Notes under the pieces: generated by a model
Told to the model about the DNA's origin: nothing
Database searches by the model: none
Seen by the model: only the letters and a program-made list of their open reading frames with translations
NCBI GenBank assembly: GCA_944388495.1
Contig: CALXIZ010000083.1
Coordinates: forward strand, 1-39,095
Direction of reading: 5' to 3'
DNA length: 39,095 bases
Source of the DNA: an uncultured Clostridia bacterium
GTDB taxonomy: Bacteria; Bacillota; Clostridia; Peptostreptococcales; Anaerovoracaceae
Program-made: the position numbers and the translations under genes
Shown: piece by piece, positions 17,525 through 39,095 of the stretch
Numbering within the stretch: position 1 is the first letter of the stretch
How the letters are laid out: each line of letters begins with the position of its first letter

Positions 17525-17657
17525 ATACTCACCCCATAGACTGCCATGATTCTGCACTTATATATTAACACTTCCCGGTCGGGTAGGAAATGATATTTCG
17601 AAACAGCTTCATCTCCGCAGGCTCCTTCATCCCGTACGTGTCTTATACCGGCATATG

Positions 17658-17666
17658 TGCTATAAT
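17658..17666 (+). promoter_or_regulatory. Candidate extended -10 promoter of mod-res
   Basis: TGCTATAAT (17658-17666) is a perfect extended -10 element (TG-N-TATAAT). No good -35 is present, as expected for this class. The leader to the mod ATG would be about 105 nt. Confidence 0.55.
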
Positions 17667-17778
17667 TGCCATATTACGGCGAAAAAAGCCGCCTGCCTCC
17701 GGAAACTTCGGATTTTCATCCGCAGACCGGCGGAAAAAGAGCGGCTGCACGCATATCCGGAAGGAGGAAAGGACACCG

Positions 17779-24458: not shown

Positions 24459-24518
24459 TAAAAATTCTCACCGGACTTCCCCCTATGCATCACGCGCAGA
24501 GGATCCGATGAGAATTTT
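24459..24518 (-). terminator. Terminator of the heme-uptake operon
   Basis: Arms 24461-24475 and 24504-24518 form a 15-bp stem with one mismatch. The minus-strand copy ends in TTTTT (24464-24460). It begins five bases past the CydC-like stop codon and closes the nine-gene operon that starts at 34017. Confidence 0.7.
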
Positions 24519-24522
24519 CCGC

Positions 24523-26169
24523 TTACGACAGTCTCCCGCTGTCGATAGTATAAGAGCTGTCGGCTATAGACAGTGTGGATTTCCGGTGAGAGACGAGGAT
24601 GACCGTACGTCCCTGCCGCGACTCGCTCAGCGCTTTCAGAACCGAGCCTTCGTTGAGACTGTCCAGATTGCTGGTCGGCTCATCCAGCAGCAGCAGAGGC
24701 GCGTCGTGCAGAAAGGCGCGCGCCAGACCGATGCGCTGCCGCTCGCCTCCGGACAGAGTGCCGCCCAGTTCGCCCACCGGCGTATCATATCCCTGAGGAA
24801 GCGTCATGATAAAATCATGAAGCGACGCTTTCTCCGCCGCCCTTTCCACCTCCTCCTGTGCCGCATCCGGCTTTCCGATACGGATATTGTCTCCTATGCT
24901 GTCGTGGAAGAGATCCGTCTCCTGAATCATGTAGCTCTCCAGGCTCCGCAGATGATCTGTCTGTATCCGCCCCACGTCGAGGCCGGAGATCCGGACCGTT
25001 CCCTCCGGAGCTTTCCAGAAGCGCATGAGGAGCTTCAGAAGCGTCGATTTTCCGGATCCGCTCCGTCCCGTTACGGCGATGATCTTTCCTTCCGGAAACT
25101 TCACCGAAAGATCGCGCAGTATCTCTTCGCTTCCGTAGGAAAAAGAGAGATGCCTTGCTTCCGCGCCCTCAAAATCAGGTTTTTCGCCCTGCAGGATATC
25201 CTCCGTCTCCGGCGCTTCCTCCATCAGAGTGAGCACACGCTCTCCGGCTGCCAGCGTCTGATCCATCGTCGCCGAAAGACCGGCGAGAGCCAGAACAGGC
25301 CCGAAGGAAGCGGAAAGCATGACTGTCGTCAGCAGCAGGTCAGGAAAAGGAACAGAAAGCAGCAGACCCGCGCCCAGCATCAGCAGAGTCAGCGCTGTAA
25401 CGGCAGCGCCGGACCAGGAGGATGCCGCCGCTTCATGTTTTTTCAGCTGTCCCTGAAGACGGTTTATCTCTTCCGTGCGTTGTGCAATCTCCAGCGCCCG
25501 TTCGTCATCGCGACTGTACTGCAGAGTCTCACGGATTCCGCGGAGGCTTTCGAGAAAATAACTGTTCAGTTCCCCTAACCTGTCTCTGACCTCCACACCC
25601 TGTCTGCGGCCCAGCCCTGAGGATACCAGCGGAATTACACAGCCCACGATCAGATAAGAAACACAGGCTGCCGCTCCCAGCAGCGGATGAAAAACTCCGA
25701 TGGCGCAGACCATTCCGGCAGATACCAGAACAGCGATGCATACCGGAGCTACAGTGTGAGCGTAAAATACTTCCAGAAGTTCGATATCTCCCGTGATCAG
25801 AGAGATCAGGTCTCCTCTTCCTCTCTGCTCAAGCTTTGCCGGCGCCAGACGGCGCAGCGCTCCGAACAGTCTGTCGCGCAGAACCGCCAGCAGCTTAAAG
25901 GCGATAAAATGACCGCAGATCTGCTCTCCGTACCGCAGAGCCGCCCGTGCCGCCGCGCATACGGCCATGACCGCCGCCCCGGCGGAAAAAGAAAATGCCC
26001 ACGGCGACAGATCCGCTGCCGTAAGGAGGAGATTTACCCCCAGCACCGTGATAGCGATGGCACAGAAGAATCCGGCCGTTCCCATCAGAATGCAGAGAAC
26101 CATTACAGGAGACAGAGGTCTCAGGAGCCCGAGAAGCCCCCACATGATCCTTATACCGCTCCTTCGCAT
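24523..26169 (-). CDS. ABC exporter half-transporter, CydC-like
   Basis: The 548-residue protein joins a six-helix type IV membrane domain (about 8-300) to an ATPase domain. The ATPase has Walker A GRSGSGKST (368-376), signature LSGGERQR, Walker B LLLLDEP and a SHR H-loop. The ATG at 26167-26169 has AGGAG 8 nt upstream, inside the end of the preceding gene (19-nt overlap), so the two halves are coupled and likely form a heterodimer. CydDC exports cysteine and glutathione, is needed for cytochrome bd assembly and binds heme. No cydAB is visible here; co-location with heme import suggests a heme- or thiol-linked role, but a siderophore-type exporter is also possible. Confidence 0.78.
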   Translation of the reverse strand: MRRSGIRIMWGLLGLLRPLSPVMVLCILMGTAGFFCAIAITVLGVNLLLTAADLSPWAFSFSAGAAVMAVCAAARAALRYGEQICGHFIAFKLLAVLRDRLFGALRRLAPAKLEQRGRGDLISLITGDIELLEVFYAHTVAPVCIAVLVSAGMVCAIGVFHPLLGAAACVSYLIVGCVIPLVSSGLGRRQGVEVRDRLGELNSYFLESLRGIRETLQYSRDDERALEIAQRTEEINRLQGQLKKHEAAASSWSGAAVTALTLLMLGAGLLLSVPFPDLLLTTVMLSASFGPVLALAGLSATMDQTLAAGERVLTLMEEAPETEDILQGEKPDFEGAEARHLSFSYGSEEILRDLSVKFPEGKIIAVTGRSGSGKSTLLKLLMRFWKAPEGTVRISGLDVGRIQTDHLRSLESYMIQETDLFHDSIGDNIRIGKPDAAQEEVERAAEKASLHDFIMTLPQGYDTPVGELGGTLSGGERQRIGLARAFLHDAPLLLLDEPTSNLDSLNEGSVLKALSESRQGRTVILVSHRKSTLSIADSSYTIDSGRLS

Positions 26170-27899
26170 GCCGCCGTCTCCTTTCCATAGTTTTCCAGTT
26201 TTTGCTGTTTCAGGTACAGCGCGGCATAGCCGCCCTCTCTGTTTTCCATGAGCTGTCTGTGCGTTCCCTTTTCCAGAATTTTTCCTTTCTGCAGAAAAAG
26301 GATCTCATCCGAATCCGTCACATTGGCCAGGCGGTGTGAGATGAGAATTACAGTATGAGTTCCCCGCAGAGAACGGATCGCCCGCATGATATGTTCCTCA
26401 CTCTCGGCATCGATGTTGCTGGTAGCTTCGTCAAAAATGTATACCGGGCTGTCTTTCAGCAGAGCTCTCGCCAGAGCCAGCCGCTGGCGCTGTCCCCCGG
26501 ACAGATTCGATGCTCTTTCCGAAAGCGGCATGTCCAGCCCGCCTCGGGACATCACAAAATCCAGGAGACTGACACGCCGCAGCGCTTCTTTCATTTCCTC
26601 TTCCGAAGCATGTTTTCCGCCTTCCTGAAGCGCCGCGCGGACAGATCCTCCGAAAAGGTAACTGTCCGGGGATACCACCGTCACGTTTCTTCTCAGGCTT
26701 TCCGCCGAAATGAGCTCCAGAGGCACGTCTCCGAAAAGTATTTCTCCCTGCCAGTCCTGCCGCTCTCCGCAGAGCAGCGAAGCCAGAGTGGATTTTCCGC
26801 AGCCGCTCCTGCCGGCCACAGATACGAGCGTTCCCTTCCTGATGACAAAATTCAGATCAGACAGAGCGGCTCTGTTTCCGTCATAGGAAAATCCGAGATT
26901 TCTGACTTCGATATCTCCGTTCGGGCATTCTTCTGTGCCACTTTTGCGTTCCGGCAGACCGAGCAGACGGAACATCCGCTCGCCGGCGGCAACGCCGTTC
27001 ATAGCGACATGAAAAAAGCTGCCGAGCGTCCGCATGGCGAGAAAAAACTCACTCGCCAGAAGAATCATGGCCAGCGCGACTGTAAAATCCATTCCCCCCG
27101 ATGCGAATTCCCGGGCACAGAGAATACTCCCCAGAGCCGTACCGCCGTAAGCGACAAAGTCCATTACGGTTATGGAATTCAGCTGCATCCGCAGAACTTT
27201 CATCGTAATGACTCTGAAATTTTCTGATTCCTCATTCATCTTTTTATGTCTCTGCCCGTCCGCATTATAGACTTTAAGCGTCGTCAGCCCCTGAAGATTT
27301 TCCAGGAAGCTGTCGCCCAGGCTGGCATAAGCATCCCAGTATCTTCCCAGAAGGCGCTTTGCGATCCGCTGTACCGCCGCGATGGCAGCCGGAATCAGCG
27401 GTACGCATATGAAAAGAGCCGCGGCAGCGGCCGGCGCTTCCGGAAAAAAGACAAGGAAGAGCGTCAGAGGTGCGAGAAACGCATAAAAGAGCTGCGGAAG
27501 ATAATTGCAGAAATAGGATTCCAGCTGTTCCACACCGTCCCCCGCCAGCTGAACCACTTCGGATGTCGGGAAAGAGTCAGCGTAATCTCCGCCAAGCCTG
27601 CGCAGCTTGCCATATATCGTCTGTCTCAGACTGCGCTTGACCGCCGAAGAGATCCGGTGTGTCAGAAGAGAAGCGGCGCGGGTCAGGATAAATCGCACGG
27701 CAATGCAGCAGATACAGACGAAAGCGCAGACGGCAGACGTCCGCTTCATCTGTCCGTCAAAGGCTTCTCCGAGAATACCGTTTGCTCTGAACCAGAAAAA
27801 AACACCTGTCAGCAGAGACAGCCAGCTGACCAGCGTCTTCATCGGAATCAGCCGCCTTGTCTCCGGAACCGCTGCGATCAGGCGTTTATCTATCATCAT
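26151..27899 (-). CDS. ABC exporter half-transporter, CydD-like
   Basis: This protein of about 582 residues has a CydD-type membrane domain with FPTSEVVQLAGDGVEQLESYF and YLPQLFYAFLAPLTLFLVFF. Its ATPase domain has GRSGCGKST, LSGGQRQR, VYIFDEATSN and SHRLANV. A longer open frame runs 43 codons upstream through the DUF454 gene. I start at the ATG at 27897-27899 because GGAGG lies 8 nt before it and the DUF454 stop codon overlaps it. It is the partner of the CydC-like protein and part of the heme-uptake operon. Confidence 0.8.
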   Translation of the reverse strand: MMIDKRLIAAVPETRRLIPMKTLVSWLSLLTGVFFWFRANGILGEAFDGQMKRTSAVCAFVCICCIAVRFILTRAASLLTHRISSAVKRSLRQTIYGKLRRLGGDYADSFPTSEVVQLAGDGVEQLESYFCNYLPQLFYAFLAPLTLFLVFFPEAPAAAAALFICVPLIPAAIAAVQRIAKRLLGRYWDAYASLGDSFLENLQGLTTLKVYNADGQRHKKMNEESENFRVITMKVLRMQLNSITVMDFVAYGGTALGSILCAREFASGGMDFTVALAMILLASEFFLAMRTLGSFFHVAMNGVAAGERMFRLLGLPERKSGTEECPNGDIEVRNLGFSYDGNRAALSDLNFVIRKGTLVSVAGRSGCGKSTLASLLCGERQDWQGEILFGDVPLELISAESLRRNVTVVSPDSYLFGGSVRAALQEGGKHASEEEMKEALRRVSLLDFVMSRGGLDMPLSERASNLSGGQRQRLALARALLKDSPVYIFDEATSNIDAESEEHIMRAIRSLRGTHTVILISHRLANVTDSDEILFLQKGKILEKGTHRQLMENREGGYAALYLKQQKLENYGKETAACEGAV

Positions 27900-28339
27900 C
27901 TCCGCATCCTCCCTTTCTTCTCCGTCTCCGTCATTGCCGCCGTATCCGTCCCGTTTTCTGTCTCCGGCGCCGTTTCCGGACGGTACGTCTTCACGAAGAA
28001 ACAGAACGCGGCGACATGAGCCAGCCATACGACGGCGAGACAGATGCGGCCTGCCGCCGAATCTTTCATTAAGATAAATGCAACGGCCATGATGGCCGTC
28101 ACCGTTCCCATGATCCGCAGCTTTGCGCCCCGCGTCATTCCCCGTCCCTGCACGAAGGACTCCAGATTGCTGCGGTAAAGCTTCGTTTTCCTGAACCAGT
28201 TATTCAGACGGTCCGAACTCCGGGCAAAGCAGAATGCCGCGAGAAGCAGAAACGGCGTCGAAGGCAGAACCGGAAGGATTGCGCCTGCAGCTCCCAGAGC
28301 GAGAGTAAAAAAGCCCAGGATAACAAACAGAATTTTCAT
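27896..28339 (-). CDS. DUF454 (YbaN-like) inner-membrane protein
   Basis: The 147-residue protein starts MKILFVILGFFTLALGAAGAILPVLPSTPFLLLAAFCFARSS, the characteristic DUF454 segment. Three to four membrane helices follow and then a hydrophilic tail (about 120-147). DUF454 has no settled function. In several bacteria it neighbours heme or iron transport genes, as here. It overlaps cydD-like and follows the importer ATPase by 19 nt. Confidence 0.85.
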   Translation of the reverse strand: MKILFVILGFFTLALGAAGAILPVLPSTPFLLLAAFCFARSSDRLNNWFRKTKLYRSNLESFVQGRGMTRGAKLRIMGTVTAIMAVAFILMKDSAAGRICLAVVWLAHVAAFCFFVKTYRPETAPETENGTDTAAMTETEKKGRMRR

Positions 28340-28358
28340 GATACTCCCCCCTCTTTTC

Positions 28359-29123
28359 TCAGACAGCCATCACACAGAGTCTGCCTTCTGCGCGAAAGAC
28401 GGGCAGACGGATACCGTACAGAGTCTGCAGACTCTCAGAATCGATCACATCCTCCGGCGCGCCCTGTACCGCCACGCGCCCGTCTTTCAGTCCGATGATT
28501 TCATCGGAGTAAGCCAGCGCCTGATTTATATCGTGCAGAACCATGACGATCGTCATACCCTGCTCCCGGTTCAGCCGCTCCACCAGACGCAGAATCTCCA
28601 CCTGATACCGCACGTCCAGCGAAGTGGTAGGCTCGTCCAGAAACAGCAGCTTCGTATTCTGAGCCAGCGCCATGGCGATGAAAGCCCGCTGACGCTGGCC
28701 GCCGGAAAGCGTGCCGATTCTCCTGTCCCGGAGTTCCGTCAGACCGGTAAGATGCATGGCGCGTTCCACCTGTTTCTGATTCTTTTCATCGAGACTCACT
28801 CTGAAGATCGAATGATACGGCAGACGACCGTAGCTGACCAGTTTTTCTACCGTCAGATCATCCGGCGCCGCGTTTTTCTGATGGACGATAGCCGCTCTTT
28901 TGGCAAAATCCTTCAGCGGGATTTTCCCGAGATCTTCTCCGTCCAGAGAAATCGATCCCCCGTCGGGCTTCAGATTTTTCGTCAGAAGAGAAAGCAGTGT
29001 CGTCTTGCCGCATCCGTTCGCCCCCATCAGAGTCGTCACCGCTCCGCTGCGGATCTCGGCGGACAGTCCGCGCAGAACCTCATGTTCTCCGTAGGAGAAT
29101 GTCAGATTCTCAATACTCAGCAT
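28359..29123 (-). CDS. Heme/iron ABC importer ATP-binding protein (FepC/FhuC type)
   Basis: The 254-residue ATPase has Walker A GANGCGKTT, a Q-loop (IVHQKN), signature LSGGQRQRAFIAMAL, Walker B LLFLDEPTTSLD and VLHDINQALAYSD, all typical of the FecE/FhuC type II importer class. The ATG at 29121-29123 has GAGG 8 nt upstream; a GTG three codons earlier overlaps that site. It overlaps the permease gene by 14 nt and powers heme import with it. Confidence 0.9.
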   Translation of the reverse strand: MLSIENLTFSYGEHEVLRGLSAEIRSGAVTTLMGANGCGKTTLLSLLTKNLKPDGGSISLDGEDLGKIPLKDFAKRAAIVHQKNAAPDDLTVEKLVSYGRLPYHSIFRVSLDEKNQKQVERAMHLTGLTELRDRRIGTLSGGQRQRAFIAMALAQNTKLLFLDEPTTSLDVRYQVEILRLVERLNREQGMTIVMVLHDINQALAYSDEIIGLKDGRVAVQGAPEDVIDSESLQTLYGIRLPVFRAEGRLCVMAV

Positions 29124-30123
29124 GACGGTCACCTCGTTTCAGCAGAATGATAAAGAACGGCCCGCCCGCAATGCTCATAATGACCGAAGCCGCAATCTCA
29201 TTGGGCGGCGCGATACACCGGCCCAGCGTATCGGCAAGAAGCAGAACAAAGCCTCCCAGCAGAACACAGAACGGTACGAGAATCCGGTGATCGGACCCCG
29301 TGATGCGTCTCGCCATATGGGGTACGATGAGAGCGAGAAAGCTGATGACGCCCACCACCGCCGTAACGCCGGATACCAGCAGAACCGCCGCCACTGAAAT
29401 GAGAAATCTCAGCCGGTCCGCATTGACGCCCAGCCCCCGTACCGTCCTGTCCTCCAGGGCGATGAGATTACAGGCGGGAGACAGAACGAGAGCCGCCGCT
29501 ATGCCGACGGCGGAATAGACCGCCATCATGCGCACGTCCGACCATACCAGCTGCGACAGCCCGCTGACGCTGACTGATACGCCCGTACGATCCGTCATGC
29601 CGCTGATCACCTCGCCGACGCCGGTAAATACGGCTGCCACCGCGATGCCGATCAGGATAATCCGCACCGGATCCAGGCCTCCCTTCCAGGCCAGAGAATA
29701 GATCAGCAGAAAGGCCAGCATTCCGCCCAGAAACGCGAAGACGGGAACGGAAAAATAGAGAGCGGGAAACAGCGCTGTGACGACGGAGGCCGCCAGCGAA
29801 GCACCTCCGGAAATACCGATGATTCCCGGATCCGCCAGAGGATTTTTCAGAACGGCCTGAAACAGCAGACCGCTGCAGCTGAGCGCCGCACCGCCTAAAA
29901 GAGCGACGATGATGCGGGGAAAACGCAGATCGTAGATCGTGGCCACCCGCTCGTCGTATTCCAGAAACAGACCGGAAAACAGCTCCCGGTAAGTGAGGGA
30001 AATGCTCCCCAGTTTCATGGAGACGAGAATCAGGACAAAAATCATCGCCGCAAGGACCGCACATCCGACGGCGCCGCGGAAAATATCCCTGTGATCCGCT
30101 TTCTCCCTATGAATCGCTCTCAA
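29110..30123 (-). CDS. isdF: FecCD-family heme importer permease
   Basis: The permease of about 337 residues is of the BtuC/FecCD family, with GAALSCSGLLFQAVLKNPLADPGIIGISGGAS, SFLALIVPHMAR and GRCIAPPNEIAASVIMSIAGGPFF. The open frame starts at 30165, but that ATG has no ribosome site and lies well inside isdE. A TTG at 30121-30123 sits six bases after a perfect AGGAGG (30130-30135), so I take the TTG start. It overlaps isdE by 17 nt and forms the membrane channel of the heme importer. Confidence 0.85.
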   Translation of the reverse strand: MRAIHREKADHRDIFRGAVGCAVLAAMIFVLILVSMKLGSISLTYRELFSGLFLEYDERVATIYDLRFPRIIVALLGGAALSCSGLLFQAVLKNPLADPGIIGISGGASLAASVVTALFPALYFSVPVFAFLGGMLAFLLIYSLAWKGGLDPVRIILIGIAVAAVFTGVGEVISGMTDRTGVSVSVSGLSQLVWSDVRMMAVYSAVGIAAALVLSPACNLIALEDRTVRGLGVNADRLRFLISVAAVLLVSGVTAVVGVISFLALIVPHMARRITGSDHRILVPFCVLLGGFVLLLADTLGRCIAPPNEIAASVIMSIAGGPFFIILLKRGDRHAEY

Positions 30124-31060
30124 TGTAAGCCTCCTCCGCATCATACGCTTCATAGGTATTGTCATAGAGAATCTCTCTCAACACCTCGAGCGCATCCGGC
30201 CATTCAAATGTGCAGCTCATGCCGAAGAGCTGATAATCCAGCTGATAGACCTGATTTTCCTGAACCGCGCGGAAATGCTTCCAGATATCATTCGTGGCAA
30301 ATTCCTCCGCAAACATTTCCATCGCCTGATCCGGCAGACCGTGAGCGGTCAGCAGAATCACATCCGGATCGAGATCCAGAAGTTCCTCTGTGTTCCAGGC
30401 GACGAAATTTTCGATCGTGTCCACCTGAACCACATTCTCCGCGCCGGCCAGTTCGATGAGAGAACCTGCATAGGAATTCGGCGTACACTCTATGTAGGAT
30501 CCCGGAAGTCCCATGAGCATCAGCACACGCGGCGTCTCCTTTCCCTCCGCAGAGGACCGGAACCGCTCCATCGTCGCCTCATATTCCGCGGTCAGCTCCG
30601 CGGCTGCTTCCTCCGCTCCGTATTTTTCTCCCAGCATCTCTATGCTGTCATACATGCCCTCCACGCTCTGAAGGTCGATGAAAGTATACGGCACGCCGGC
30701 CGCCTCATACGTCGGCTCGATGGTCTCCGCCAGCGTATCCGGCCCGATGACGTCGTCCGGATCGAGAAGCGCGATAGCCTCCGCATCCGGCGACATGGCC
30801 GTTCCGATCTCCGGAAGACCTTCATACCGTTCCGGAATTTCTCCGCCGGTGGTCGGAATGGCGATCAGATCCAGACCAAGCCGGTCACAGATCATCATCG
30901 TCGCATGAGATGTGGCGATGAGCTTCGGACTGCCGCCGGCGGAGGTACCCTCCGCCGACGCTGCGTTCTGATGCTGATCGACACAGGCTGAGAAAGAGAG
31001 AAGCATTCCCGCGGAGAGGATGAAAACCGCCGCTCTTTTCAGAAAAACGTTCTTTTTCAC
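30107..31060 (-). CDS. isdE: IsdE-like heme-binding lipoprotein
   Basis: The 317-residue protein has a signal peptide with a lipobox-like FSAC (Cys26), then a helical-backbone class III binding protein closely resembling staphylococcal IsdE. Segments include IPERYEGLPEIGTAMSPDAEA, LMLMGLPGSYIE, LTAHGLPDQAMEMF and NDIWKHFRAVQ. The IsdE heme ligands Met78 and His229 correspond to Met89 and His240, with the same separation of 151 residues. It should take heme from the Shp-type surface proteins and deliver it to the permease. The start is a GTG at 31058-31060, eight nt after AGGAGG and overlapping the preceding stop codon. Confidence 0.9.
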   Translation of the reverse strand: MKKNVFLKRAAVFILSAGMLLSFSACVDQHQNAASAEGTSAGGSPKLIATSHATMMICDRLGLDLIAIPTTGGEIPERYEGLPEIGTAMSPDAEAIALLDPDDVIGPDTLAETIEPTYEAAGVPYTFIDLQSVEGMYDSIEMLGEKYGAEEAAAELTAEYEATMERFRSSAEGKETPRVLMLMGLPGSYIECTPNSYAGSLIELAGAENVVQVDTIENFVAWNTEELLDLDPDVILLTAHGLPDQAMEMFAEEFATNDIWKHFRAVQENQVYQLDYQLFGMSCTFEWPDALEVLREILYDNTYEAYDAEEAYIESDS

Positions 31061-32019
31061 CGTCTTTTCCTCCTGATCAGGACGGCCGCTCCGCCGCCCG
31101 CCGCGGCTACGACGGCGATGACGAGAACGGTTACGGCCGCTCCGCTGATTCCGCCGTCATCGCCCGAATTCCGGGCTGAAGCCGACGTCCGGCGGCTGTG
31201 ATCCGCACTGCGGTCATCTGCCGCGCTCTCTTCTTCCGCTGCCGCCGGATCTTCCTGCTCCGTCAGTCCGTTTTCTTCTCCGTTTTCCTCATCCGTAATA
31301 CCGTCTGCGTCCTCACTGTCCACATCGTCTGTATCGCCGCTGTCCGCTTCACTGCCTGCCGCGGACGCCTTTCCGTCCGCCGGAGAGACATTCGCAGACG
31401 CCGCCGGCGCCGCTGCCGTACGGCCTCCTGAAGAGGAATGGGAAGCGGCCGGAGAGCCGGAAGAACTTCCGGATGAAGATGACGCCGGCGCACTCGTATC
31501 GACACTGACTACAAAATCGCCGCTCCCTTTCGCGAGCGTGCCGGTGTCCACATACAGGTACCAGACAACATCCCGGCCCATCGGCGTCACGTACATCGTT
31601 CCTTTCATCATCACTCCGGCATCCGAAACCTTAAAGCGATAATCGATGGAATCTTCGCCCGCGTTCTCCTGCATGACCGTATAGTTTACTTTTGAATAGC
31701 TGTTGTAGCCGTTTCTCGTATAAAGAGCTACATTTTTGCAGTTGCTCTGAAGAAGAAGGCGGACGGTCACCCAGGTATTCGTCCCGTCCGACTCCACCAG
31801 AGCCGTCTTTGCGGTGGCCGAGCGGCACATTCCCTCTCCGAGAGCTGCGTTGGCAGTACCGCCGTCATCGACTTCCCCGGTATCCGGGTTATAGTAACTG
31901 GTGACTACACCGGCTGTGTAAACGCCTTCAGACAACGCTGAAGCCGACAGCGGAAGCATCGTCCCCAGAATGACGGCGCACACCAGCGCCGCGCATATTC
32001 TTTTCATGATCATTTTCAT
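31057..32019 (-). CDS. Membrane-anchored Shp-type heme-binding protein
   Basis: The 320-residue protein has a signal peptide ending ASA, one Shp-type beta-sandwich (about 29-165) and a long Ser/Ala/acidic spacer (172-285). A C-terminal transmembrane helix followed by RRKRR (about 294-320) is the likely membrane anchor. The domain shows EGVYTAG, YYNPDTGEVDDGG, LGEGMCRSA and YVTPMGRDVVWYLYV. Streptococcal Shp holds heme between two methionines; Met64 (GEGM) and Met147 (PMGR) are the likely equivalents. It probably relays heme from the wall layer to IsdE, whose gene it overlaps by four bases. Confidence 0.8.
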   Translation of the reverse strand: MKMIMKRICAALVCAVILGTMLPLSASALSEGVYTAGVVTSYYNPDTGEVDDGGTANAALGEGMCRSATAKTALVESDGTNTWVTVRLLLQSNCKNVALYTRNGYNSYSKVNYTVMQENAGEDSIDYRFKVSDAGVMMKGTMYVTPMGRDVVWYLYVDTGTLAKGSGDFVVSVDTSAPASSSSGSSSGSPAASHSSSGGRTAAAPAASANVSPADGKASAAGSEADSGDTDDVDSEDADGITDEENGEENGLTEQEDPAAAEEESAADDRSADHSRRTSASARNSGDDGGISGAAVTVLVIAVVAAAGGGAAVLIRRKRR

Positions 32020-32050
32020 GTTTCAGTTCTCCCCGCCAGAATATTACTGT

Positions 32051-33178
32051 CTACTGTTCGTACAGATCCATAAATCTCGCCAGCACGGCTGCCACCTGCG
32101 CCCTCGAAGCAGGCTGTGCAGGAATGAAGGCTCCTCCGTCGCTGTCGGTGATCAGGCCGGCATCCGCCAGAGTTTTCACCGCATCCGACGCCCAGGAAGC
32201 CGCTTCGCTCTCATTTGCAAGAGGCGCTCCCGTACCTGCGGCGGACAGATCCTCTCCCAGGAAAGAAGCATACCGGAGAAGCAGAACGGCCAGCTCCTGC
32301 TGAGTAATAGCCCGGTCAGGATCAAACAGCCCTCCGCCGACGCCGTTTACGAGATTGTTAGAGGAAGCCCACGCCACATAAGGTCCGTACCAGGAGGAGA
32401 TATTCACATCGGAAAATCCGCCGGATGTGTAAGCGGACGTATCTATGCCGGAAATCCGTCCCACTGCGGTGACAAACATCGCGCGTGTCATGGATGCCTC
32501 AGGGCTGAATGTCGTCTCGCCTGTTCCGTTGAACAGACCCCTGTCCACGACGGCCGCCACATAATCCTTCGCCCAGTGTCCGGCAAGATCGGTGAATCTG
32601 TCAGCAGAGCTGCCTGCGGAAGGAGTCTGAGACGGATCGGCTGACGTTACAAAATCCCCGCTTCCCGCCTGCGCCTCGTCATCGGAAACATTGATGTAAT
32701 AGACGACGTCACGTCCCATCGGGATAACATACATATCACAGCGGATATAGGAATCCGCTTCCGGTACCCGGAAACGCAGATCCGCCGTATCAGCCGCGGC
32801 ATCCTCCTGCATCGTGTCAAAACTTACGCTCTCATAGCTGTCCGGATCTCCCGGCGTACGCTGCACGGAAAACTCTATATCGCGGATATTACTCATCAGC
32901 TGCATGCGGACAGTGAGACAGGTTTCGCCCTCATCCCGTTCGATCAGCGCATCCTCATATACGGCGGAGCGGCACATGCCTTCGCCCAGCTCCGGATCTC
33001 TGCTTCCTCCGTCATCGGTGACACCCGTATCGGGATTCAGATAATAAGTATTACATGGCGCGGTATACACGCCGTCCTCCAGCGCTGACGCCGTCAGAGG
33101 CATCACCGGCAGGCTCACCGCTGCCGCGGCGCACAGCAGCGCCGCGCAGAAGCGTTTCCAGCTCTTTTTTACAGTCAT
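32051..33178 (-). CDS. SLH-anchored Shp-type heme-binding protein
   Basis: The 375-residue protein has a signal peptide ending ASA, one Shp-type domain (about 33-165) with EDGVYTAP, YYLNPDTGVTDDGG, LGEGMCRSA and YVIPMGRDVVYYINV, and three SLH repeats (about 194-243, 255-306, 317-371). The putative heme methionines Met68 and Met154 are 86 residues apart, close to the spacing of Met66/Met153 in streptococcal Shp. The SLH repeats should fix it in the wall/S-layer, further out than the membrane-anchored paralogue. The ATG follows GGAGG and overlaps the regulator stop codon. Confidence 0.83.
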   Translation of the reverse strand: MTVKKSWKRFCAALLCAAAAVSLPVMPLTASALEDGVYTAPCNTYYLNPDTGVTDDGGSRDPELGEGMCRSAVYEDALIERDEGETCLTVRMQLMSNIRDIEFSVQRTPGDPDSYESVSFDTMQEDAAADTADLRFRVPEADSYIRCDMYVIPMGRDVVYYINVSDDEAQAGSGDFVTSADPSQTPSAGSSADRFTDLAGHWAKDYVAAVVDRGLFNGTGETTFSPEASMTRAMFVTAVGRISGIDTSAYTSGGFSDVNISSWYGPYVAWASSNNLVNGVGGGLFDPDRAITQQELAVLLLRYASFLGEDLSAAGTGAPLANESEAASWASDAVKTLADAGLITDSDGGAFIPAQPASRAQVAAVLARFMDLYEQ

Positions 33179-34017
33179 ATTTTTTCCTCCGTTTCTTTTT
33201 CCGGTTCAAGCCGGTCCAGAAAAAAGACGATCATCGCTTCGCTTTCCGGCATGCCCAGCATGCCCACCGAAGCTCTGGCACGTATATGAACCGTGCCCGT
33301 CATTCCCTCTTCTGTCTGTCCGCACCGTACCGCCGTTCCCGGAATATTCAGGGAGCCGTCTTTCTGTGCTGCGGCTTCCCTCCAGCCTCCGGAAGTACGG
33401 TACCACATTTTTTCGAGAATACCGCGCAGATGAAATCTCTTCTGCGGCCGGTACTTTATATTCTGCGGACAGAGCACAAAAAAGCTTTCCTCCGCTCTTT
33501 TCACCAGAATCGCAGGCTTGCGGAATCCGAGATCTCCCATGGAAAGCTCCCGGCTATCAGGCTTGCACACCTGAAAAAAGACGCGATACATTCCCGGATC
33601 CAGCTCCGACAGCACAGCGTCCTCCTGTTCCGCTTCCCCGCTGCGCTCCGTCCGTCTCCGTTTCCAGCTTTCCGTCATGGCATTCACCGTTTCCGGGAGA
33701 AGACTGACTACCATACGCCGCGCCTCCTGCTCCGCCAGCACCGGTGTCAGACCCAGATCCGACCCGAGCCACTCGGTCAATGTACTCAGAGACGGCAGCT
33801 TCGGCTCGATATATCTCCAGCCATCCTCTGTCAGCCGTATCTCCCCGCAGTTTCCTTTCTCAATCATCCCGCGCTTTTCCAGCGCCTCGCTGATGCTGAA
33901 AGCCGTCGGCTTGCTCACCTGAAACTGCTCCGCCGCCTCCGAAACGCCCTTGCCTCTTCCGTCCCGATCGGCAAACAGCAGCAGATATTCCTCCTGCCTC
34001 GATGTGAGTTTTTTCAT
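33175..34017 (-). CDS. DtxR-like regulator with an unknown C-terminal domain
   Basis: The 280-residue protein has a winged helix at 1-70 (VSEAAEQFQVSKPTAFSISEALEKRGMIEKGNCGEIRLTEDG) and a DtxR-like dimerisation helix pair at 76-115 (TEWLGSDLGLTPVLAEQEARRM). By eye, the usual metal ligands are missing: the C/E-x-x-E-H helix reads EARRMVVSLL, and the KHR histidine is replaced by serine or leucine. Residues 140-270 form a predicted mixed alpha/beta domain that I do not recognise, with Cys151, 183 and 232 and His196 and 244. It is first in the heme operon, with a 36-bp palindrome in its leader. It probably senses a signal linked to heme or iron by a non-standard route. Confidence 0.72.
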   Translation of the reverse strand: MKKLTSRQEEYLLLFADRDGRGKGVSEAAEQFQVSKPTAFSISEALEKRGMIEKGNCGEIRLTEDGWRYIEPKLPSLSTLTEWLGSDLGLTPVLAEQEARRMVVSLLPETVNAMTESWKRRRTERSGEAEQEDAVLSELDPGMYRVFFQVCKPDSRELSMGDLGFRKPAILVKRAEESFFVLCPQNIKYRPQKRFHLRGILEKMWYRTSGGWREAAAQKDGSLNIPGTAVRCGQTEEGMTGTVHIRARASVGMLGMPESEAMIVFFLDRLEPEKETEEKI

Positions 34018-34074
34018 CGGAATCCGTTCCTTTCTCTGCTCTGTCCGAAAAAACGATACAGATGGAAATCGCTC

Positions 34075-34110
34075 TTCATACCAGGTTAGTTTTTACTAAC
34101 CAAGTATGAA
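34075..34110. promoter_or_regulatory. 36-bp palindrome, probable operator of the heme operon
   Basis: Arms of 16 bp (34075-34090 and 34095-34110) match at 14 positions around a TTTT centre; the core is GGTTAGT-TTTT-ACTAACC. The GGTTAG/CTAACC half-sites recall the DtxR-box half-sites, but with wider spacing. It lies in the leader about 58 nt before the regulator start. No T-run follows on the transcribed strand, so it is not a terminator. Confidence 0.7.
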
Positions 34111-34169
34111 AAAAACAGGCAGAGATCTGCACTCTGTCTTTCTTTCACCTTCTGCCGTTTTCTGTTTTT

Positions 34170-34198
34170 ACTATACCCGCACTATCATTACATGTCAA
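34170..34198 (-). promoter_or_regulatory. Sigma-A promoter of the heme operon
   Basis: The minus strand has perfect TTGACA (34193-34198), a 17-nt spacer and TATAGT (34170-34175). The start point would be near 34163, with the palindrome 50-90 nt downstream. Confidence 0.82.
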
Positions 34199-34229
34199 TA
34201 TTAATGCATATTTTCATATTTTATATAGT

Positions 34230-34244
34230 TGATAAAAATTATCT
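34230..34244. promoter_or_regulatory. Possible Fur-like box
   Basis: TGATAAAAATTATCT matches the 7-1-7 Fur/PerR-type consensus TGATAAT-N-ATTATCA at 12 of 14 positions. It is 32 bp upstream of the -35 box, inside an AT-rich tract where chance matches are common. Confidence 0.3.
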
Positions 34245-34312
34245 ATTATTTTTAATTATATGTAGTATTTTCATTTTTCTGTTTTTCGTGCCTTATCTCC
34301 TATCCTGCCGGA

Positions 34313-34349
34313 TTAAAAAAACTGCCGGAGAAACAGATCTCCGGCAGTT
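34313..34349 (-). terminator. Terminator of the giant NEAT-SLH gene
   Basis: A 12-bp GC-rich stem (34319-34330 with 34338-34349) is followed on the minus strand by a run of seven or more T. It lies 21 nt beyond the stop codon and separates the receptor from the regulator-led operon. Confidence 0.88.
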
Positions 34350-34369
34350 TCTGCCTCAGAAATATCGGC

Positions 34370-37300
34370 CTACAGGGAATACCCCTGCATGAAGCGTGCG
34401 AGCAGTGTCGCCACTTCCGCTCTCGTCGCCGTCTCCTTCGGAGCGAATGTGCCGTCTCCCATGCCTTCAATCAGACCGACGGACGCCATAGCTGCCACCG
34501 CTTCCTTCGCGTAGCCGCTGATCTCATCGCTGTCCGTGAAAGTGACGGCTTCCCCTTCCGTCAGCTCAATCTCCGCAAACTCCGCGTAACGGCTGAGAAG
34601 CGCCGCCATCTCCTGTCGGGTGATGGCACGGTCAGGATCGAAGGTCGTCTCACTCGTACCTGTCACGATGCCGTTTTCCGCAGCCCATGCCACATACGGC
34701 GCATACCAGGAATCCGCCGCTACGTCTTCAAAGCGAGTGACGCCGTCCGATGCACTGACACCTGCCAGACGGCCGATCGCTGTGACAAACATGCTTCTCG
34801 TCATGGACGTATCCGGACTGAATTCCGTGTCGCTGACACCGTTGAACAGTCCTCGCTCCACGACGAAATCCACGTATTCCTCTGCCCAGTGATCCTTCAT
34901 GTCAGTGAAATCCCCGCCGGCTTCCTCTGCAGGAGGTACTTCCTGTCCGTCCGCGCCGACGACGGCGAAGAGTCCCAGGCTGCTGGTATTGATTACATAG
35001 TATCCGTCTTTTGCCTCGCCCTTAAGCAGCGTCTTTGAACCGCTGTCGCTGATGCGGTAAACCGTCACCGCATCTTTTCCGCTGTAAGGGAAAGAAAGTG
35101 TCACGGAGCCCTGCGGCGCCGTTACGGTACTGCCGACTTTCGTCTCGATTTTATACAGAGACCACTCGCCTTCGATGCCCTCCATCGCTTTGGCCGCTGT
35201 ATCGTAATCCTTTCCTGAGCTCAGCACAGAAACGTTCAGCTTCGCCGTATTGCTGAGACGTTCCGTGTTCGTCTCAAGCCGGATACCCGTCTGTTTGTCA
35301 ACCAGGGCGATATCTTCGATTTTTTCGCCCGTGATACTGCTGGTGCCCGCGCCTGTCTCATCATTGGAATCCAGCGCCGATTCCCCCGTCTTCGAAGCGG
35401 TATTCCAGGTAAATCTCAGGCGCGCACTGAGCGTCTCGCCTACCGCGCTGTCCATCGGTGTATCAGGAACCTTAAATGTCACATCGACATAGGTCACGGA
35501 ACCTGACGAGGAAGGCTGTCCTTCCCGCGGCATATCAAACTGTATCCGTTTGATATATTCATACTCATTGCCCGCCGGCTCTGTCGTCACTGTTCCTTTT
35601 TCCAGGATCCGGATATTGGAAGCATCCGGTATATCAAATTCGACGATCGCGCTGTGATACTGATCCACATCGACAGGATTCGTCGCGATCTGCACTGCGG
35701 TGATTTCTCCGTCTTCCACTCTGACCAGAGCGCGGTCGTTGTTCGAAAATGCCACGTTGCCCATGGAGGCTTCATTGGCTGCCGTCTTCCAGAGATCCAC
35801 ATCGACATAATAATATCCGTCGCTCAGGAAAAATTCCTCTTCTTCCTGAGGAGTATCCTGTTCTGTTCCGCCTCCCTGGGAACCTCCTCCGGATCCTCCG
35901 CTTCCGCCGCCGGAGCCTCCTCCCGGATTTTCCTCTGAGCTCTCTGTCTTAAAGGAAACAGAGACGTCGATGTCGCCGTCGACCAGAACTGCTGCGGTAT
36001 CTGAAGATCCGGAAGCATCTCCGCTCCAGGAATCGATGATGTGGCCGTCCGAAGGCTCTGCTGTAAAGAGAACCGTCTTTCCTCCTTCTATGGAGTCGCC
36101 GGAACGTATCTCTTCTCCGTCAACGGAAGCTTTTATCGTACCGCCGCCTCCGGAAACGGCAAAGGTGACTTTTCCGTCCGCTTCTTCACCGGTAGCCTTT
36201 TTCATAAAGTGAACAGAGACATTCAGATCACCGGAAATTACTGTCCTTACCGGATTTCCGGAGCCGGAAATTCCGCTCCAGCTGCTGATCTCATGTGCTG
36301 CATCAGGTGTCGCGGTGAAAACGACTTCTTTTCCGTATTCGACTTCATCTCCGCTTTCGATAGCAACACCGTCTACCATCGCCGTCAGTGTACCGCCATC
36401 TCCGGCCGAGAAGGTTACTGTCCCGGTCTGATATCCGCTTCCTGTGCTCTGTCCCATTTCGGCGAGAGCAAAATATCCGAAGGAATCCGTCTCGAAGACG
36501 AAAAATCCGTCTTTATCCATCGCGCCGCCGGAAATCTCCTGAGGACGCGAATTCGAAAGATTTTCAAGATAGTATACTGTCAGTCTGTCACGGTTCCATC
36601 CTTCCGGAACGTAAATCTTAACCGTGACGCTGCCGTCAGTCTGTACAGAGGATCCGTTTTCATCAATCACAGAAACAGTATACGGAATAAAATCCTCAAT
36701 ATCATAAGCTCCGAGCTTGTTTGCCATCGCGACATAATTTATCGTCGTCGTCATTCCAGCCTTCAGAGCGGCATTTGCAGGCACTGTTCCGGAAGCCGCC
36801 TCCGCAAAAACGCCGGCATTGAGAGTATCGGTCAGATAATCCGGGCTGATTCCCACATATCCGCTGCCGCTCACAAGACCGTCCGCCGCATTCTGCAGAG
36901 CTTTCTCCGCCGCATCCAGCTCATCCTGTTCCGCATTTTCCTGATAGCGCGCCGCATACGCCGCTGTCAGCGCGACACGCAGATCATTCAGGCTTGCTGC
37001 TGTGTAATGGTCTGCCTTTTTTAGCAGAGTTTCCGCATCCGCGATCGCTTCTGCAACACCCGCGCGGTTCACGCCGCTGTCGACGACATTGCCCTCGTCA
37101 TCCAGCTTCTGAATCTGACTGTAGTCGATCTTAAGCAGAGCATTCTGAGCTCCGGAGTCTCCTCCCATGGCATCGACGGACACGCGGATATAGATCGTCT
37201 CATATCCGTCCTGCGTCGAAACATACGGCATGGTAAATGTCACCGTGCCGGGATACTGAGAGCGGTCGTCCGGATTTTCCGGATCGGAATCCATCGGGAT

Positions 37301-39095
37301 CTGTTCTCCCGGATTCTCTTCGTTTACGGTATAATAGCCGCTCAGATTCATCAGTGTCATTCCTGTGACATTATATGCATTGTCAGCTGCAGTTTCAGGA
37401 TCCGCTCCCTGATACAGCCATGCGCGCAGGAGATGTCCCCACTGATCGAAGGACTCCAGATATTTCGGTTTAAAGGTCAGCTGCATCGCCGCTGTGCCGT
37501 CATCTCCGACTGTGATCAGCGCATCCGGCTCCACCGCGTCGTTTGCCATGGAATCCTGAGACGGAGTCGCCGCATTCTTTATGCTGATCGGCACGGTATA
37601 CTTTCCTGCCTCGAGATTGTCGACATCGATGCCTTCATCTTCCGGCGTCACACGCACCAGCGATGCAAAAGCTTCTCTCAGTACAGAGGATGCCATCTCT
37701 ATCGTGTCTGCCGCAGGATCTCCGTCGGCAAAATCCAGATAAGTCTGTGCCGCGGCAATCGCTTCCGAAAGTCCTTCTACCGACTGATAGGTACCGTCAT
37801 TTGTCGCTACGATCTCCTCTGCTACTTTCATCAGAGCATCCAGAGCCGTCCGGTCAGCCGTCACCGGTCCTTCAGAAGACGCTTCCAGCGAACAGAGTAC
37901 GGAGACCATGGCTCCCACACCGTCGGAGCTGATTTCCTTCTCCTCCAGAGCAGACTCCGCAGCCTGAAGGATGACATTTTCACCGGCGGAAGCTCCGAGT
38001 TTCGCCTTTGCTGCCTCGACTGCAGCCCGCAGAGCAGCAAATTCCGCCTCCGACGCCGGTTCGAAAACTACCGCATCCCCGCCGGAGCCCGATCCGAGAG
38101 GGACGAGAGATGCGATACGCGCCTCCAGTTCGGCTGCCAGCTCATCGATTTCCTCCTGAGAAGGCAGCGGCGGCGTATCCGGAAGAGCCCTCATTTCACG
38201 AGCCTCTGCCAGTTTATCGTACATATACCGGTAACTGGACGCAGTATACTGACTCTTTCTGACAGCTTCCGCAGCTTCGATCTGCGCATCGAGCGCTGAC
38301 CAGTCCATATCAACGACCAAAGCATCGTGCGCTGCCTCTAACGCGCTGATCTGCTCCAGAATTTCCGCCAGTGTGGACTCCTGATTGTCCGCTACGGCAG
38401 ATGCCGTCTCGATAGCTTCTGTCAGCGCCGCAAAGGAAGTTTCCGTATAGCTGTCGCTGTTCACATTCTGCGCTTTCTGAATCGCATCCTTCAGCTCCTC
38501 AAGCTTTGTTTCCTTCTGATCGGAAAGGGCCTCTTCCATCGCATTCAGAGCGGCTGTCAGTTCTTCCTGCGTCGCCACGGGATCATCATAGACAGCCTTC
38601 TGCTCCGCATATGTCGTATCCGCTTTCTCACCTGCCAGCGTCAGCAGTTCACCCAGCTCGGCGCGGCCGGTGACCGGAGTCATAGGATAATCCGGAATCT
38701 GATTCCAGGCCAGAGAAAAATATGACCCTTCCGCTCCGGTTCGAATTGTAACCGTTTGGGAAGATGTAACATAGTTATGAGCTGTAAGTCCGATTGACGT
38801 CAATCCTGTAGTTGTTTTCGGATTCGATAGTTTTATTATAGTAGCACATGTTACCGTTCCACTATCCGCTCCCTGTATATTACCTGGTAATTCTTTCGTC
38901 TCAATAACAACTACATCCTCTGTAGCATCTTTTGTTATATCATCACTAAACAGATTGCCCGCAGGTGAATATTTTAAACTATACTCCGTTGAACCCGATT
39001 TTCCTTCTGCTGTAAAGGCAATCGGAAGAACCTTAGTCGCTGAATCCTTAACTGTCAAATACAGTGCTGTAACATCCCCGTCTTCTATTACGGCT
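34370..39095 (-). CDS. Giant NEAT/FIVAR/SLH surface heme receptor (5' part beyond window)
   Basis: At least 1574 residues are visible; the frame is still open at the right edge, so the N-terminus is outside. Approximate nucleotide order: possible partial NEAT or Ig-like domain (39095-38680); FIVAR-like helical repeats (38670-37650); NEAT1 (37620-37110) with SMAN and YETIY; another helical repeat (37075-36865); a beta domain ending SFGYFALAE (36740-36455); two InlB-like repeats (36425-36200, 36175-35950); Gly-rich linker; NEAT2 (35835-35400) with SMGN but no YxxxY; a second beta domain ending SLGLFAVVG; three SLH repeats (34910-34390). It should capture heme or hemoproteins at the S-layer. NEAT1 looks heme-binding; NEAT2 may bind the protein ligand. 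Its own terminator follows. Confidence 0.82.
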   Translation of the reverse strand, partial: AVIEDGDVTALYLTVKDSATKVLPIAFTAEGKSGSTEYSLKYSPAGNLFSDDITKDATEDVVVIETKELPGNIQGADSGTVTCATIIKLSNPKTTTGLTSIGLTAHNYVTSSQTVTIRTGAEGSYFSLAWNQIPDYPMTPVTGRAELGELLTLAGEKADTTYAEQKAVYDDPVATQEELTAALNAMEEALSDQKETKLEELKDAIQKAQNVNSDSYTETSFAALTEAIETASAVADNQESTLAEILEQISALEAAHDALVVDMDWSALDAQIEAAEAVRKSQYTASSYRYMYDKLAEAREMRALPDTPPLPSQEEIDELAAELEARIASLVPLGSGSGGDAVVFEPASEAEFAALRAAVEAAKAKLGASAGENVILQAAESALEEKEISSDGVGAMVSVLCSLEASSEGPVTADRTALDALMKVAEEIVATNDGTYQSVEGLSEAIAAAQTYLDFADGDPAADTIEMASSVLREAFASLVRVTPEDEGIDVDNLEAGKYTVPISIKNAATPSQDSMANDAVEPDALITVGDDGTAAMQLTFKPKYLESFDQWGHLLRAWLYQGADPETAADNAYNVTGMTLMNLSGYYTVNEENPGEQIPMDSDPENPDDRSQYPGTVTFTMPYVSTQDGYETIYIRVSVDAMGGDSGAQNALLKIDYSQIQKLDDEGNVVDSGVNRAGVAEAIADAETLLKKADHYTAASLNDLRVALTAAYAARYQENAEQDELDAAEKALQNAADGLVSGSGYVGISPDYLTDTLNAGVFAEAASGTVPANAALKAGMTTTINYVAMANKLGAYDIEDFIPYTVSVIDENGSSVQTDGSVTVKIYVPEGWNRDRLTVYYLENLSNSRPQEISGGAMDKDGFFVFETDSFGYFALAEMGQSTGSGYQTGTVTFSAGDGGTLTAMVDGVAIESGDEVEYGKEVVFTATPDAAHEISSWSGISGSGNPVRTVISGDLNVSVHFMKKATGEEADGKVTFAVSGGGGTIKASVDGEEIRSGDSIEGGKTVLFTAEPSDGHIIDSWSGDASGSSDTAAVLVDGDIDVSVSFKTESSEENPGGGSGGGSGGSGGGSQGGGTEQDTPQEEEEFFLSDGYYYVDVDLWKTAANEASMGNVAFSNNDRALVRVEDGEITAVQIATNPVDVDQYHSAIVEFDIPDASNIRILEKGTVTTEPAGNEYEYIKRIQFDMPREGQPSSSGSVTYVDVTFKVPDTPMDSAVGETLSARLRFTWNTASKTGESALDSNDETGAGTSSITGEKIEDIALVDKQTGIRLETNTERLSNTAKLNVSVLSSGKDYDTAAKAMEGIEGEWSLYKIETKVGSTVTAPQGSVTLSFPYSGKDAVTVYRISDSGSKTLLKGEAKDGYYVINTSSLGLFAVVGADGQEVPPAEEAGGDFTDMKDHWAEEYVDFVVERGLFNGVSDTEFSPDTSMTRSMFVTAIGRLAGVSASDGVTRFEDVAADSWYAPYVAWAAENGIVTGTSETTFDPDRAITRQEMAALLSRYAEFAEIELTEGEAVTFTDSDEISGYAKEAVAAMASVGLIEGMGDGTFAPKETATRAEVATLLARFMQGYSL

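Follow-up and report, generated by a model that had tools for sequence, protein, structure and literature searches.

A Sia-like heme acquisition locus with S-layer anchors and a putative cytoplasmic NEAT-DtxR heme sensor in an uncultured Clostridia bacterium

Introduction

The sia operon of Streptococcus pyogenes starts with shr, shp and siaABC, continues with two more ABC genes and ends with an ECF transporter, all under the control of MtsR (PMC6593403). Its receptor Shr is held by a C-terminal membrane anchor and carries no sortase signal (PMC2266757). The first NEAT domain of Shr shows a pattern of Ser389-Met390 together with Met475 (PMC12796733), and the heme ligands of the partner protein Shp are numbered Met66 and Met153 (PMC2266757). 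NEAT proteins can also be attached through SLH domains, as is the case for BslK of Bacillus anthracis (PMC4143258). According to a 2014 survey (PMC4143258) and a 2021 review (PMC7815599), the known NEAT domains are all located outside the cell. PefR, HrtR, HatR, FhtR, Irr and HbrL are one-component heme regulators (PMC11442138), and a role as heme-reading transcription factor is proposed here for a new regulator. In contrast to this regulator, these proteins use MarR, TetR, Fur or LysR folds, and a NEAT domain has been described in none of them.

In this study, a heme locus of an uncultured Clostridia bacterium is described. The window that was analysed is the whole of contig C83 (39,095 bp), which is part of a draft genome of 2.06 Mb in 152 contigs that is 92.9% complete and in which the giant receptor gene is broken. 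As a heme locus it is a variation on a known type, Sia-like in its working and largely in its build. Its most unusual part is a gene between the giant receptor gene and the Shp genes (33175-34017), which was absent from the initial annotation. No description of a NEAT domain in a regulator was found in the literature searched, and to our knowledge the NEAT-DtxR regulator encoded by this gene is undescribed; its architecture is new, whereas one-component heme regulators are already known.

Gene content of the heme locus

All genes of the locus are located on the minus strand. In the direction of transcription they encode the giant NEAT receptor and, after a gap of 352 bp, the regulator, an SLH-anchored Shp, a membrane-anchored Shp, an IsdE-type lipoprotein, a FecCD permease, an ATPase, a DUF454 protein and CydD-like and CydC-like subunits. 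The components that had been named in the initial annotation were all recovered by profile searches, and one NEAT domain of the giant also by its predicted fold. The system had been called complete as well, which does not hold, since the window is the whole contig and the 5' end of the giant gene is missing from it.

The regulator gene (33175-34017) is the first gene of the operon and overlaps by 4 bases with the gene for the SLH-anchored Shp (32051-33178), a protein of 375 aa with an Shp domain and three SLH repeats. The second Shp (31057-32019) combines an Shp domain with a C-terminal membrane anchor. The HemeBinding_Shp profile gives 153.5 and 171.6 bits in the two proteins (cut-off 26.4), and in an alignment both keep Met66 and Met153 of S. 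pyogenes Shp (2q7a). The IsdE-type heme lipoprotein (30107-31060) is matched by TIGR03659 with 330 bits (cut-off 299). Alignment with Staphylococcus aureus IsdE places Met and His at both ligand positions, which we take to be the heme ligands of the S. aureus protein. The FecCD permease (29110-30165; 269 bits), the ABC importer ATPase (28359-29132) and the small DUF454 protein of the YbaN type (27896-28339; 120 bits) follow, likewise identified by profile searches.

The last two genes encode ABC exporter subunits, the CydD-like one (26151-27899) with an internal ATG at aa 44 of the open reading frame taken as start, and the CydC-like one (24523-26169). The latter is just above the cut-off of its model (TIGR02868, 332.6 bits vs 329.05), and the former is under that of the CydD model (382 bits vs 435). 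A role of this pair in cytochrome bd maturation was rejected, as no bd oxidase was found in the genome. Because cytochrome bd subunit I was not found in the 92.9% complete genome, the pair probably serves the heme locus, perhaps through the export of heme or a thiol.

The locus resembles the sia operon (Shr-Shp-SiaABC/HtsABC-SiaDE-SiaFGH) in the order of receptor, Shp, lipoprotein, permease, ATPase and ABC pair, and both share the Shp family and the bis-methionine NEAT pockets. It differs in its SLH anchors, its two Shp proteins, its IsdE-type lipoprotein and its DUF454 gene. In addition, its linked regulator lacks a metal site and contains a NEAT domain, and the gene after cydC encodes a radical SAM protein instead of the ECF components SiaFGH. 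As siaFGH are lacking at the operon end, the locus is therefore Sia-like rather than a sia operon.

The giant NEAT receptor and contig C49

The giant receptor gene (34370-39094) is truncated at its 5' side by the contig end, and 1574 aa are present. Two NEAT domains were identified: domain A (aa 490-666; 37097-37627) and domain B (aa 1088-1256; 35327-35833). Both carry the SM motif, and the second methionine is aligned and is present in domain B. Three SLH repeats (34409-34909) are located at the end of the protein. In the profile searches that the initial annotation had put forward as a check, Shp, SLH and DUF454 matched, whereas the NEAT domains of the giant remained under the Pfam cut-off (29.3 bits vs 32.8); with an iterated profile of Clostridial NEATs, domains A and B reached 90 and 160 bits. 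Modelled alone (pLDDT 81.8), domain B matches the NEAT structures of IsdX1, IsdX2 and Hbp2 (Z 11.2, rmsd 3.3, 119 residues), and Shp to a lower extent (Z 8.0). In related loci, some 180 NEAT domains widely keep the Ser-Met of the 3-10 helix (Ser 99%, Met 83%), often together with a second methionine.

Contig C49 of the same genome encodes, in matching direction, an iron-responsive DtxR (Fe-DtxR) and an SLH-NEAT protein. It also encodes a small secreted protein and the N-terminal part of a large secreted one, the gene of which is cut by the contig end. In two related loci, L069 and L088, relatives of the small secreted protein are encoded directly upstream of the giant. Therefore, the junction between C49 and C83 most likely lies inside the giant gene, and a likely N-terminus of the giant is on C49. 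This placement rests on the gene order of L069 and L088, the N-terminal piece on C49 having given no alignment. The SLH-NEAT protein of C49 (L010, 1776-3314), a second protein of this kind beside the giant, reaches 127 bits with the Clostridial NEAT profile. The small secreted protein (L010, 691-1194; 167 aa) shows weak NEAT similarity (11.9 bits) and is a possible small hemophore.

S-layer anchoring and distribution of the gene set

Profile searches identified three SLH repeats both in the giant and in the 375-aa Shp, and 84 SLH matches in the genome as a whole, in which a gene for a CsaB-type pyruvyl transferase is also present. Two sortases are encoded elsewhere in the genome. No sortase signals were found on the receptors, the C-termini of which are SLH domains or a membrane segment. 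The proposal of a heme acquisition relay in which SLH anchors are used at two levels, on the giant and on one of the Shp proteins, is well supported. The contrast that had been drawn from it holds only in part. The SLH anchors are real, but Shr, with its C-terminal transmembrane segment and charged tail (PMC2266757), contradicts the statement that known Gram-positive systems use sortase, and BslK was already known as an SLH-anchored NEAT protein (PMC4143258). As in the giant, the NEAT part of BslK is held by three SLH domains; BslK differs in its single NEAT domain and Isd background, and neither an SLH-Shp nor a NEAT regulator has been described there.

The distribution of Shp proteins was studied in 63 proteins from named Clostridial genomes and further family members, leaving out repeats and two sortase-type three-repeat proteins. 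The genome scan was performed with an alignment of four Shp domains, as an alignment of seven was too diverse. SLH anchors are present in 10 of the 63, including that of the window, and almost all of the rest have a C-terminal membrane segment. No description of an Shp with SLH domains was found in the literature searched. Among the 63, an SLH-Shp in tandem with a membrane Shp is found in the window only. In a tree, the membrane Shp groups with membrane Shps of the Oscillospiraceae type and shares 73% identity with that of L071. The placement of the SLH-Shp is not firm, and the SLH-Shps have one or two origins, a single origin being recovered in 34% of the bootstrap trees.

A cassette of one or more NEAT receptors, Shp, IsdE, FecCD and ATPase recurs in variable order in most of 52 named Clostridial loci, and the DUF454 gene and the CydDC-like pair are often part of it. 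The initial annotation had stated that no described system has this set of genes and had suggested a survey of Clostridial gene neighbourhoods. The statement turned out to be weak, as the sia operon provides a parallel in gene order (PMC6593403) and the version of the set that includes DUF454 and CydDC is found repeatedly in Clostridia. In Clostridium cadaveris and a relative (L094 and L096, 8714-10414), a protein in which three weak Shp-like repeats are combined with a sortase-type signal (LPQTG) adjoins IsdE-FecCD-ATPase and could have the same role with a sortase anchor.

The NEAT-DtxR regulator

The profiles made for the surface NEATs unexpectedly matched the linked regulator. This protein of 280 aa combines a winged helix and dimerisation unit (aa 1-125; 33643-34017) with a NEAT domain (aa 138-272; 33202-33606). 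A profile of 24 homologs matches MntR, DtxR and IdeR (6e-13) and, C-terminally, the NEATs of IsdX1 and IsdX2 (6e-7). Against solved structures, the full profile aligns with 6o5c, MntR, ScaR, IdeR and DtxR at positions 7-123 and with the IsdX1 and IsdX2 NEATs from position 141. The C-terminal profile alone matches IsdX1/IsdX2 (4e-7; IsdX1 3.7e-7), Hbp2 of Listeria (2e-4) and Shr of S. pyogenes (3e-3). Searched singly, 14 of the 24 regulators are matched by Pfam NEAT (best 6.6e-6) and 17 by NCBIfam MntR; Pfam NEAT does not reach the window copy alone and does reach its family profile. A C-terminal HMM built from regulators only matched 51 of 1608 non-regulator ORFs, with surface NEAT receptors at the top (best 2.4e-21), and no reversed sequences.

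The AF2 model of the regulator (pLDDT 88.3) has an MntR-like N-terminus and a NEAT C-terminus. It was made on one chain without heme, and with a pTM of 0.63 the relative placement of the domains is uncertain. The closest structures to the NEAT part are heme-binding NEATs, with a Z of 14.6 to the IsdX2 NEAT5-heme structure (rmsd 2.0, 112 residues). No membrane segment is apparent in the 34 regulators examined. From profiles and model, the architecture of a DtxR-type unit with a cytoplasmic NEAT is well supported. The domain resembles the surface NEATs of Isd, Hbp, IsdX1/X2, Shr and Shp in its beta-sandwich, the serine of the 3-10 helix and a second ligand near the beta7/beta8 hairpin; in contrast to this cytoplasmic domain, the described ones are all extracellular (PMC4143258, PMC7815599).

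The predicted heme contacts are strictly conserved. Ser159-Met160 (33538-33543), the predicted propionate contact and first axial ligand by comparison with Ser389-Met390 of Shr, and Met256 of Met256-Pro257 (33247-33252), the predicted second axial ligand, are present in 34/34 regulators, with 90-100 residues between the methionines. The YXXXY motif of the Isd type is absent from the regulator NEATs, as it is from Shr and Shp. With hhalign, the two methionines pair with those of the surface NEATs (Prob 97.9, E 4e-13), which in turn pair with Met66 and Met153 of Shp (Prob 94). When the profiles of the regulator NEAT and of Shp were compared directly, no match was obtained with small or larger alignments, and the link to Shp runs only via the surface NEAT profile.

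The regulator shares the winged helix and dimerisation fold of the DtxR, MntR and IdeR metalloregulators. It differs from them in the loss of the metal ligands and in having a NEAT domain where DtxR has a C-terminal SH3-like domain. Of the DtxR ligands, H79 and C102 are kept in 0/28 regulators, E105 in 1/28 and H106 in 2/28, whereas they are intact in nine DtxR-type controls from the same genomes, including the Fe-DtxR on C49. By its sequence, the regulator is a descendant of the DtxR family without the status of a metalloregulator. In a tree, the regulator NEATs are on one side of a branch opposite 48 surface NEATs (SH-aLRT 99), which is consistent with a single recruitment of NEAT onto the regulator.

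One such regulator is encoded in this genome. In a phylum-wide sample, the regulator was found in 5 of 398 genomes, from five genera, and adjoins heme-uptake genes wherever the short flanks are readable. Among cultured relatives, Thomasclavelia cocleata, Hespellia stercorisuis and Konateibacter massiliensis have the regulator. In some Lachnospiraceae (L084 424-1302, L086 1023-1901 and L090 296-1162), a second, diverged regulator of similar length is located upstream of the NEAT regulator. It matches the NEAT-regulator profile at 130-140 bits, has no clear second methionine and possibly forms a paralog pair with the NEAT regulator.

The control region

The 352-bp gap upstream of the regulator contains a likely terminator of the giant gene, consisting of a perfect 13-bp inverted repeat and a T-rich stretch (34319-34350, minus strand), and a near-consensus promoter, TTGACA-17-TATAGT (11/12; 34170-34198, minus strand). 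Between this promoter and the regulator gene, a near-perfect palindrome of 36 nt is located, TTCATACCAGGTTAGT-TTTT-ACTAACCAAGTATGAA (34075-34110), which is a candidate operator of the NEAT regulator. Just before the palindrome, the operon leader contains a terminator-like hairpin with a T run (34110-34136), a possible case of attenuation.

The core of the palindrome, TTAG-N6-CTAA, occurs upstream of 7 of 27 regulators (0.3 expected) and 20 of 65 NEAT receptors (0.5 expected), and upstream of none of 64 Shp genes. The consensus of 33 sites is G-TTAG-Y-N4-R-CTAA-C. On C49, an exact copy of the palindrome precedes the gene for the small secreted protein, and the gene for the second SLH-NEAT protein is preceded by a close form. 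Looser palindromes are present in the same genome near feoAB-like/feoB, flavodoxin-like and Fur-type genes, which were named by reading their sequences. As an operator search with three mismatches gave 17 matches, similar to the 15 in a reversed control, only closer matches were used. Because the palindrome is also located near feoAB-like and flavodoxin-like genes, the Fe-DtxR on C49, recognized by Pfam Fe_dep_repr_C, may share this operator and bind it instead of, or alongside, the NEAT regulator. Looser palindromes were also observed near genes for leucine-rich-repeat-like surface proteins, an ABC exporter pair and a Fur-like gene (L014, L015 and L016 on contigs C33, C82 and C81), which are candidates for an iron/heme regulon.

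Proposed mechanism and alternative explanations

We consider it probable, at roughly 70%, that this heme acquisition operon is of the Sia type (Shr-Shp-Hts-like) and has its own cytoplasmic NEAT-DtxR heme sensor. Heme would be captured by the giant SLH-anchored receptor and passed via the SLH-anchored Shp and the membrane-anchored Shp to IsdE and the FecCD importer. In the regulator, the DtxR-type DNA-binding and dimerisation unit is devoid of metal sites and is joined to a NEAT in which two methionines are invariant. After import, heme or a different porphyrin would most likely bind this NEAT and alter DNA binding, by which the operon would answer to intracellular heme, with feedback repression as the direction. 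The domain content, fold, conservation, metal-ligand loss and linkage to the heme locus were computed; we infer heme as the ligand, bis-methionine ligation, the role of the TTAG-N6-CTAA palindrome as operator of the regulator, and feedback repression. A one-component heme sensor for the operon is the best inference for the function of the regulator. It is also fairly probable that a DtxR scaffold blind to metals acquired NEAT in a single event, and that the outcome is a new family of heme-sensing transcription factors in the cytoplasm, with a bis-methionine pocket as in the surface relay that they control.

The regulator NEAT could instead have lost heme binding and kept a structural or protein-contact role, such as partner binding or dimer stabilisation, while the operon would respond to iron alone, by way of the Fe-DtxR on C49. 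This Fe-DtxR is intact, and the presence of the palindrome near feoAB-like and flavodoxin-like genes fits such a control. We nevertheless regard this as unlikely, as Ser-Met and the second methionine are invariant in 34/34 regulators even though identity with the window copy, taken over the whole protein, drops to about 20-45%, and as the same residues are heme ligands in Shr and Shp. A different ligand, another tetrapyrrole or a degradation product imported by the transporter, is less probable still. Substrate specificity is not readable from sequence and the two-methionine pocket is neutral, so that other porphyrins could be taken; the conservation of both heme-ligand positions in the IsdE-type lipoprotein and of Met66/Met153 in the Shps points to heme.

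The initial annotation had seen the novelty in the S-layer relay itself, with non-covalent anchoring through SLH as the mark of a new kind of heme acquisition. SLH domains on the giant and on one Shp speak for this view, as do the ten loci with an SLH-Shp, including the window, in which alone it stands in tandem with a membrane Shp. Against it, about 50 Clostridial loci combine the same core genes with membrane anchors, BslK is a precedent and the sia operon shares the gene order. Anchoring varies inside one system and defines no new kind, and we regard this view as improbable.

If the NEAT-DtxR regulator binds heme, it would be a new heme-sensor architecture, in which a domain thought to be strictly extracellular has moved into the cytoplasm with its ligands kept, and one domain family would handle heme from the cell surface to the gene. 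It would also give a direct handle on heme sensing and uptake in largely uncultured Clostridia and provide a natural heme-responsive domain already fused to a DNA-binding unit. With two differently anchored Shps in the SLH relay, heme hopping between S-layer-held and membrane-held carriers becomes testable.

Other genes on the contig

A further SLH protein is encoded at 12728-14695, with a GHL10 glycoside hydrolase-like domain and three SLH repeats, adjoining a CpsB/CapC gene. Neighbouring genes for an N6/N4 DNA methylase and a ResIII helicase on the plus strand (17590-22381) look like a type III restriction-modification system.
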